A stretch of 64,000 nucleotides of DNA, taken from positions 62,001-126,000 of the forward strand of contig NZ_SOBG01000003.1 in assembly GCF_004365575.1 (NCBI RefSeq), read 5' to 3'. The number at the start of each line of letters is the position of its first letter. The first letter of the stretch is position 1. Below are positions 16,324 to 16,831 of this stretch, in pieces. Under the pieces are notes generated by a model that saw only the letters and a list, made by a program, of their open reading frames with translations, did not search any database and was not told the origin of the DNA. The position numbers were made by a program, and so were the translations under genes. This DNA comes from Hypnocyclicus thermotrophus (lineage in GTDB: Bacteria > Fusobacteriota > Fusobacteriia > Fusobacteriales > Fusobacteriaceae).

Positions 16324-16384
16324 CCTCCTATTAATTTTTATTTCATTGAAATTACAACTTTAAATCTTAGTGTTATTAATAGGA
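16324..16384 (-). promoter_or_regulatory. Helix masking the metE Shine-Dalgarno
   Basis: On the RNA, UCCUAUUAAU (16384-16375) is perfectly complementary to AUUAAUAGGA (16335-16326), which contains the first four bases of the metE AGGAGG. The loop is 39 nt. The 5' arm is the end of a 9-codon leader ORF including its stop codon, so a ribosome there would open the helix. The pairing is visible; the function is inferred. Confidence 0.5.
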
Positions 16385-16405
16385 ACCGTCATAAAATAAC
16401 CTCAT
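16376..16405 (-). CDS. Putative 9-codon leader ORF upstream of metE
   Basis: ATG 16405 to TAA 16376 encodes MRLFYDGSY. AAGGTG lies 5 nt and GGAGGG about 11 nt upstream. The ORF starts 28 nt after the cobalamin aptamer and ends 58 bp before metE. Its final codons form one arm of a helix that covers the metE ribosome site. A short ORF can occur by chance; its position and ribosome site make it a candidate regulatory peptide whose translation, not sequence, matters. Confidence 0.4.
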   Translation of the reverse strand: MRLFYDGSY

Positions 16406-16432
16406 TATATCACCTTCCCTCCGAAGAATTTT

Positions 16433-16588
16433 AAAATAGGTAAGTCTCCTGACTTAGCTTCATCCTACTCCCTTGTCTTCCCAGAATCTCTTCCAGTGAC
16501 TTTTTTAAGGTTTCGTCCACAATACAGTAGCGGGGGCTGTGCTGGATTCTCACCAACTTCCTTGTTATGCACAAGTACACCTATTTTT
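16433..16588 (-). ncRNA. Cobalamin (B12) riboswitch
   Basis: The minus-strand RNA has the hallmark B12-box features: GGTGAGAATCCAGCACAG then CCCCCGCTACTGT, GTCACTGG, CTGGGAAG, and near the 3' end GAAGCTAAGTCAGGAGACTTACCTATTT. The ends (AAATAGG and CCTATTT) form the closing P1 stem. It senses adenosyl- or methylcobalamin and should switch metE off when B12 is present. No terminator follows it, so control is probably at translation. A loop ACCTT (16511-16507) could pair with AAGGT in the leader ORF ribosome site (16416-16412). Confidence 0.95.
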
Positions 16589-16603
16589 ATATATAATTTT
16601 TAA

Positions 16604-16635
16604 TAAAAAAACTCTTTCGAGTATGAAAGAGTTTT
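16604..16635 (-). terminator. Riboswitch-controlled intrinsic terminator (SAM-I expression platform)
   Basis: An 11-bp stem AAAACTCTTTC (16635-16625) / GAAAGAGTTTT (16618-16608) with a 6-nt loop is followed by a U run. It lies between the SAM-I aptamer and the cobalamin aptamer, so SAM binding should stop transcription before the B12 element is made. Confidence 0.9.
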
Positions 16636-16649
16636 ACTAAATAAACTAC

Positions 16650-16770
16650 CTCTCATCTTCGAATTTTTTGATTTAAACTTTTAATCAATAATTCCCGGAA
16701 TTAGCACCACACCTTAAATGGTAGGTTGCTGAAGCATCTAAGGGCCGTTCCCTCCGCTTCTCTTGATAAG
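16650..16770 (-). ncRNA. SAM-I riboswitch (S-box)
   Basis: The minus-strand RNA starts CTTATCAAGAGAAGCGGAGGG, followed by ACGGCCC, CAGCAACC, GGTGCTAATTCC and GATGAGAGG, the conserved S-box blocks in order. P1 is CTTATC (16770-16765) with GATGAG (16657-16652). It binds S-adenosylmethionine and promotes the terminator just downstream. It is the first of two aptamers in the metE leader. Confidence 0.96.
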
Positions 16771-16802
16771 AATTTATTAAATTTTAAAATTATATTATAA
16801 AA

Positions 16803-16831
16803 ATAATACAACTTTTTGTGAAATTAGTCAA
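16803..16831 (-). promoter_or_regulatory. Promoter of the metE leader RNA
   Basis: On the minus strand TTGACT (16826-16831) and TATTAT (16803-16808) are 17 bp apart, about 30 bp before the SAM-I aptamer. The -35 box overlaps the last codons of rnhA. Confidence 0.7.

Follow-up and report, generated by a model that had tools for sequence, protein, structure and literature searches.

A cobalamin riboswitch and a nine-codon leader ORF upstream of metE in Hypnocyclicus thermotrophus: a probable translational relay

The metE gene considered here lies on the minus strand of a 64,000-nucleotide stretch of the H. thermotrophus genome (the window) and is preceded by a cobalamin riboswitch whose P13 hairpin is about 85 nt from the metE Shine-Dalgarno sequence (SD). 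The initial annotation had proposed a relay, in which the riboswitch controls a short leader ORF and translation of that ORF frees the metE SD. From the sequence comparisons described below this relay is well supported, the same parts recurring in related leaders, but two features of the proposal required revision: the kissing partner of the P13 loop had to be corrected, and a SAM-I riboswitch with its terminator, located farther upstream, had been overlooked.

Organization of the metE leader

The elements of the leader are collected in Table 1. The promoter is a candidate by consensus match only, and the number of promoter matches in the region was about the same as the mean for shuffled sequences. 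Two aptamers follow it. The SAM-I aptamer is one of five SAM-I matches in this genome; the cobalamin aptamer, which matched the RF00174 covariance model over its full length (model positions 1–189) with a score that places it in the cobalamin class, was the only cobalamin match found in the genome. The absence of a terminator after the cobalamin aptamer, as originally described, was confirmed by a scan of the window leader, which found no terminator-like site between that aptamer and metE and, thus, nothing in this interval by which the AdoCbl part would act through transcription termination. The SAM-I aptamer and its terminator (16608–16772, minus strand) lie directly 5′ of the cobalamin aptamer, and the whole is a tandem SAM/B12 metE leader with a transcriptional and a translational stage. 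The order of SAM-I aptamer with its own terminator, AdoCbl aptamer, and metE is the layout of a tandem NOR gate, and it is likely that this leader is a NOR gate working at two levels, transcriptional for SAM and translational for B12. As the genome also encodes metH, the B12-dependent synthase (PF02965), repression of metE by B12 would make physiological sense. The leader ORF is separated from metE by 58 nt, the distance from its ATG to that of metE is 88 nt, and 39 nt form the loop between the two arms of the helix that covers the metE SD.

Table 1. Features of the metE leader in the window
Feature	Position	Strand	Evidence or remark
Candidate sigma-70-type promoter TTCACA-17-TATAAT, 5′ of both riboswitches	16794–16822	−	11/12 consensus matches
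SAM-I riboswitch aptamer (RF00162)	16650–16772	−	80.6 bits (gathering 44.4)
Putative intrinsic terminator of SAM-I riboswitch, AAAACTCTTTC-ATACTC-GAAAGAGTTTT + U-run	16608–16635	−	Sole terminator-like site in leader
Cobalamin riboswitch aptamer (RF00174)	16422–16599	−	114.1 bits (gathering 31.5)
L5, GCCCCCGC; cytidines are the likely L13 kissing partner	16530–16537	−	The five closest leaders have an identical L5
P13 hairpin UCUUC-GGAGG-GAAGG; loop L13 + 3′ arm = leader-ORF SD	16413–16427	−	Stem covariation
16-mer CTTCGGAGGGAAGGTG (P13 + leader-ORF SD)	16411–16426	−	Exact copies in 3/98 fusobacterial genomes
Leader ORF, nine codons, MRLFYDGSY + TAA	16376–16405	−	ATG at 16405; second TAA 16375–16373
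Anti-SD arm UUCCUAUUAAU, last leader codons + stop	16375–16385	−	Holds 99% of predicted metE SD pairing
SD arm AUUAAUAGGAG of anti-SD helix	16325–16335	−	Folding + shuffle test
metE SD AGGAGG	16324–16329	−	Duplex energy −10.2 kcal/mol; spacing 6 to ATG 16317
metE, cobalamin-independent methionine synthase, 754 aa	14053–16317	−	PF01717 + PF08267; NCBIfam NF003556 + TIGR01371 above cut-off

The leader ribosome site and the helix over the metE SD

Among 98 fusobacterial genomes, three contain the exact 16-mer, and in these it is confined to the interval separating a cobalamin aptamer from metE. The five-pair stem around its loop covaries: in a set of seven distinct leaders from the phylum with GGNGG-type L13 loops, which were picked for their loop type, a choice that somewhat favours pairing, 97% of the cells were paired and seven cells had changed on both sides, giving a score of 0.66. 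None of 500 shuffles scored as high, and every slid register scored much lower. We concluded from this covariation around the loop that the 16-mer is P13; as read from the sequence, the loop GGAGG is L13 and the SD of the leader ORF at once, so that the riboswitch carries the leader ribosome site within its L13 hairpin. The ribosome site and the ORF MRLFYDGSY were indeed present as first reported, and no other leader ORF surveyed had an SD region that paired with the anti-SD as strongly as GGAGGGAAGGTG (duplex energy −15.5 kcal/mol).

Sequences able to form an L5–L13 kissing loop are present in the aptamer and the expression platform (GCCCCCGC and GGAGG; predicted pairing). In the M. tuberculosis metE riboswitch, a kissing loop between L5 cytidines and L13 guanines was demonstrated by mutation and compensation (PMC11260477), and by analogy the most likely contact of the aptamer here is between CCCCC of L5 (16536–16532) and the P13 loop GGAGG (16422–16418). 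The initial annotation had instead paired the aptamer loop ACCTT (16511–16507) with AAGGT of the leader ribosome site; that complementarity exists, but it is not the conserved L5–L13 contact, the L5 of this class being a cytidine-rich loop whose cytidines are the usual partner of L13 (PMC11260477), and we ruled it out as the conserved kiss. A separate observation came from folding of the free RNA, in which the aptamer sequence AACCUUA (16506–16512) paired with UGAGGUU of the first leader codons (16398–16404; minus strand), a possible competing structure at the leader start which, in the model, makes accessibility of the leader SD in the apo state uncertain.

The 10-bp perfect complementarity that had been noted between the end of the leader ORF and the metE SD region (TCCTATTAAT, 16384–16375, with ATTAATAGGA, 16335–16326) is there, and extends to 11 bp if one U-G pair is counted. 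A perfect helix of such length over the metE SD had a probability of 0.003 in 1000 dinucleotide shuffles. With a predicted unpaired probability of 0.22, the metE SD cost 3.4 kcal/mol to open, a value reached by 22% of the shuffles (p 0.22) and by 23% of the genes in the window; judged by modelled thermodynamics alone the occlusion is moderate and ordinary, and the helix is the weakest of those in the five helix leaders described below. When the 146-nt tail was folded whole, its stability was not above that of shuffles (z 0.8), indicating that total folding energy is uninformative here. The test for the longest uninterrupted helix suits the window, but bulged helices in relatives escape it, and the SD opening cost is the better measure. 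Taken singly, the window sequence is only suggestive as evidence against chance.

Folding with and without the aptamer pairs enforced, one of the checks named in the initial annotation, left the metE SD unpaired at 0.23–0.24 either way. With a ribosome footprint placed on the leader stop, this value was 0.65 for the whole leader and 0.90 for a short segment. Because closure of the metE SD was independent of the aptamer and was relieved by the footprint, the only predicted handle of the aptamer is the leader SD, and its only predicted link to metE is translation of the leader. As this is the sole predicted link, B12 should repress: the L5–L13 contact would form, the leader would fall silent, and the hairpin would stay shut.

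Leaders of the same design in other Fusobacteriota

MetE was sought in the 98 fusobacterial genomes and the metE loci were then scanned with Rfam; among these loci a cobalamin aptamer upstream of metE was found additionally only in two genomes, G062 and G063, which represent two other families of the same taxonomic order and encode MetE proteins 63% and 59% identical to that of the window. Conservation in related metE leaders had been suggested as a test, and the comparison supported the relay: the 16-mer is present unchanged in both leaders and is followed by a leader ORF, of 30 codons in G062 and 7 in G063, and by an anti-SD helix, the helix having a different sequence in each. A SAM-I aptamer upstream of metE is absent in both. 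In G063 the ORF encodes MKLVNTS, the helix is CUUCUUA.UAUUUUUGUUUU/AAAAUAAAAAUA.UAGGAGG, and opening of the SD costs 7.7 kcal/mol. In G062 the ORF encodes MRCEKFLFSLCFIIFISVMKSKKIIKTEEK, its stop codon and the start codon of metE overlap as TAATG, and the ORF reads through both arms of a long, bulged anti-SD helix with an SD opening cost of 11.0 kcal/mol.

Three further cobalamin leaders contain such an ORF. A second cobalamin riboswitch in G062, located before a TonB/BtuB-like receptor gene, is followed by the ORF MTKRNIPP with a TAA stop and by a 13-bp helix (AUUCCUCCUUAAU/AUUGAGGAGGAAU; SD opening 12.2 kcal/mol). The gltS leader of G053 contains the ORF MTMNRRTTVLRF, and its SD opening cost is 7.1 kcal/mol. 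The second cobalamin leader of G063, also before a receptor gene, has the ORF MTRLIPI, but no anti-SD helix was predicted there and opening costs 0.5 kcal/mol; the median for genes in the window, for comparison, is 2.2 kcal/mol. A hairpin like that of a ribo-attenuator, with the gene's ribosome binding site (RBS) in the 3′ arm and leader codons in the 5′ arm, is predicted in the window, in both G062 leaders, in the G063 metE leader, and in G053. The partner of the SD sits at the leader stop in four of these five helix cases, the exception being G062 metE with its longer ORF. The peptides themselves are not conserved, MRLFYDGSY, MRCEKFLF..., and MKLVNTS sharing nothing.

Fisher's combined probability for SD occlusion over all six leaders, including the one that has no helix, was about 3e-6, and it is on account of this recurrence in relatives that we regard the leader design as more than chance. 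Since only three metE leaders were available for comparison and their A/U-rich arms could not be aligned column by column, the claim for the helix rests on structural recurrence. Fourteen metE genes of the phylum lack an aptamer; among them, the SD was open in seven (≤1.5 kcal/mol) and partly closed in seven (3.5–6.5 kcal/mol); by these predictions, occlusion of an SD as such is not unique to riboswitch leaders, whereas its placement in leader codons is.

About 150 cobalamin matches were collected across the phylum, and 128 aptamer–gene pairs were parsed by script. A terminator-like hairpin was present in 93 pairs and none was detected in 35, a number which is an upper bound since the detector overlooks some long hairpins (L207, L245, and L246). 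With a strong leader ORF defined as an ATG with an SD at −11 kcal/mol or better, the terminator-containing set of 93 had no such ORF, against 6 in the set of 35 (Fisher p 3e-4). When 80 metE loci from other phyla were screened with regular expressions, few cobalamin leaders appeared. L016, which combines an RF00174 aptamer with metE in a member of the Firmicutes, has a terminator-type leader and was set aside. A nucleotide search of plasmids gave matches only to parts of single aptamers.

A probable relay from riboswitch to leader ORF to metE, and its alternatives

We consider it probable that the locus contains a translational cobalamin riboswitch controlling the ribosome site of the nine-codon leader ORF, and not that of metE, with a SAM-I and terminator stage upstream. 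The SAM-I riboswitch and its terminator would first decide whether the transcript is made. When B12 is absent, the P13/L13 region would be free and ribosomes would initiate on the leader ORF; ribosomes at its last codons and stop would then cover the 5′ arm of the anti-SD helix, and the metE SD thereby exposed would be used by newly recruited or re-initiating ribosomes. When B12 is bound, L5 (CCCCC) would kiss L13 (GGAGG) and hide the leader SD in P13, and with the leader silent and the anti-SD helix shut metE would be off, the overall logic being repression by SAM or B12 at two levels. Sequence comparison establishes the parts, their order, the covariation of P13, and the persistence of leader ORF and anti-SD helix as their sequences change; ligand binding, leader translation, opening of the helix, its coupling to metE, and the direction of regulation we infer. 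We also lean, by a little, towards the broader proposal that such leaders form a natural class of expression platform, with an aptamer that gates nothing but a mini-ORF and with the last codons of this mini-ORF as the anti-SD strand of the real gene; this class would be the natural counterpart of synthetic ribo-attenuators, would recur in the Fusobacteriales ahead of metE, gltS, and a BtuB-like receptor gene, and in the window would stand behind a SAM-I switch as a two-level NOR gate.

Leader translation might be real and yet act mainly through survival of the transcript, by blocking Rho or RNase, or through plain re-initiation, with little contribution from the helix. Riboswitch-linked leader ORFs have been connected with Rho in M. 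tuberculosis (PMC12810186), and the ORF of the G063 receptor leader lacks an anti-SD helix. Strong anti-SD helices with differing sequences in four other leaders, however, argue that the helix matters. A/U-rich leaders are, moreover, generally poor sites for Rho, and on balance we judge this explanation unlikely.

The main rival is presented by a SAM-II case that operates without leader translation (PMC9373788). By this reasoning the leader SD would be a loading site, hidden when B12 is bound; exposed, it would recruit 30S subunits for initiation directly at metE, the leader remaining untranslated. In S. meliloti metA an SD inside the SAM-II riboswitch is required, yet the start codon used is AUG2, 74 nt downstream, and translation is not lost when AUG1 is mutated (PMC9373788); in the window the two ATGs are spaced by 88 nt. 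Against a loading site, metE has a strong SD of its own, the anti-SD arm lies in leader codons in five of the six leaders and at the stop in four, and the G062 ORF continues across both arms to a TAATG that takes in the metE start codon, arrangements that standby loading would not need. We therefore hold direct loading to be distinctly unlikely.

It is less probable still that the leader ORF is incidental, that is, that L13 is G-rich for the L5 kiss and merely resembles an SD, the ATG is there by chance, and metE is controlled in some other way. In agreement with this explanation, many fusobacterial cobalamin leaders have a G-rich L13 and no leader ORF, but strong leader ORFs were confined to leaders without a detected terminator, a leader ORF with a conserved SD occurs in three of three metE leaders, and folding predicted no other link between P13 and the metE SD. 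Attenuation by a leader peptide, with ribosomes stalling on leader codons according to amino-acid or tRNA supply independently of the aptamer, is hardly credible even though a short ORF precedes an amino-acid biosynthesis gene, for the start codon is the only Met codon, the peptides share nothing, and the window leader contains neither the series of codons specifying the regulated amino acid nor the terminator after the ORF that mark such attenuators.

The riboswitch-to-leader-ORF-to-metE relay resembles several known systems in part. In the open-access papers searched, riboswitch-controlled leader ORFs were represented by mycobacterial cases, and fusobacterial cobalamin riboswitches with metE by a single general review. 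In M. tuberculosis ppe2, the L13/SD hairpin of the B12 aptamer likewise belongs to a short upstream ORF, uPPE2, translation of which is required for the downstream gene (PMC11260477). There, however, stop and start overlap in AUGA and the gene has no SD, giving coupling by termination and reinitiation, whereas the window metE has an SD of its own, closed by a predicted hairpin from leader codons, and lies across the 58-nt gap; a stop/start overlap, TAATG, was found only in G062. The same TAATG junction occurs in synthetic ribo-attenuators, in which ribosomes of a riboswitch-controlled ORF open a downstream hairpin hiding a second RBS (PMC5496857); these differ in being engineered and in having 150 bp of the riboswitch's working ORF ahead of them, and the window stop lies inside the 5′ arm rather than in a TAATG. 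In E. coli iraD, CsrA blocks a short leader ORF whose translation opens a sequestered downstream SD, but the regulator is a protein instead of an aptamer (PMC5574718). The Bacillus clausii metE tandem similarly has a SAM-I followed by an AdoCbl aptamer, both predicted OFF switches, with metH also present; either ligand is described as suppressing transcription in that NOR gate, in contrast to the window, where the terminator belongs to SAM-I only and the B12 part is proposed to be translational (PMC9481103). Salmonella mgtQ, a short ORF before mgtB, promotes translation from a structured downstream RBS, but is intergenic, depends on peptide residues, and involves no riboswitch (PMC8092293).

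Riboswitch-linked leader ORFs have become known very recently, mainly from mycobacteria and with a different coupling. If the relay is correct, these fusobacteria would provide an independent bacterial lineage with riboswitches that target a leader ORF instead of the gene, the coupling hairpin being written in the leader codons. Such a leader would offer a compact, testable system for the opening of one RBS by the ribosome of another and a natural template for the design of ribo-attenuators. It would also caution that, where a translational riboswitch and the SD of its gene lie far apart, the control may pass through a small ORF that annotation has skipped.

Several observations concern neighbouring cases. 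The only other species of the window's genus in the 98-genome set, G001, gave neither a metE nor a cobalamin riboswitch match. The gltS gene of G053 (L089 1501–1830) encodes a sodium/glutamate symporter and is preceded by a cobalamin riboswitch and leader ORF; GltS of G060, 92% identical over the part compared, was rejected as a second example, as a transposase-like stretch and no aptamer lies upstream. In genus g3, three receptor genes (L268, L273, and L274) have a 14–15 codon ORF between the cobalamin aptamer and a terminator-like hairpin, and because of that hairpin they were not counted as members; in L272 of the same genus the leader ATG has been lost (ATAAG). In genus g5, L207, L245, and L246 have an (M)NYYIIMIYLLKNNIYNY-like leader ORF after the L13 sequence CGGGGAG, followed by a long, strong hairpin with a T-run, and the SD of the gene is open; these also were not counted, and are possibly leader ORFs within a terminator-type platform.
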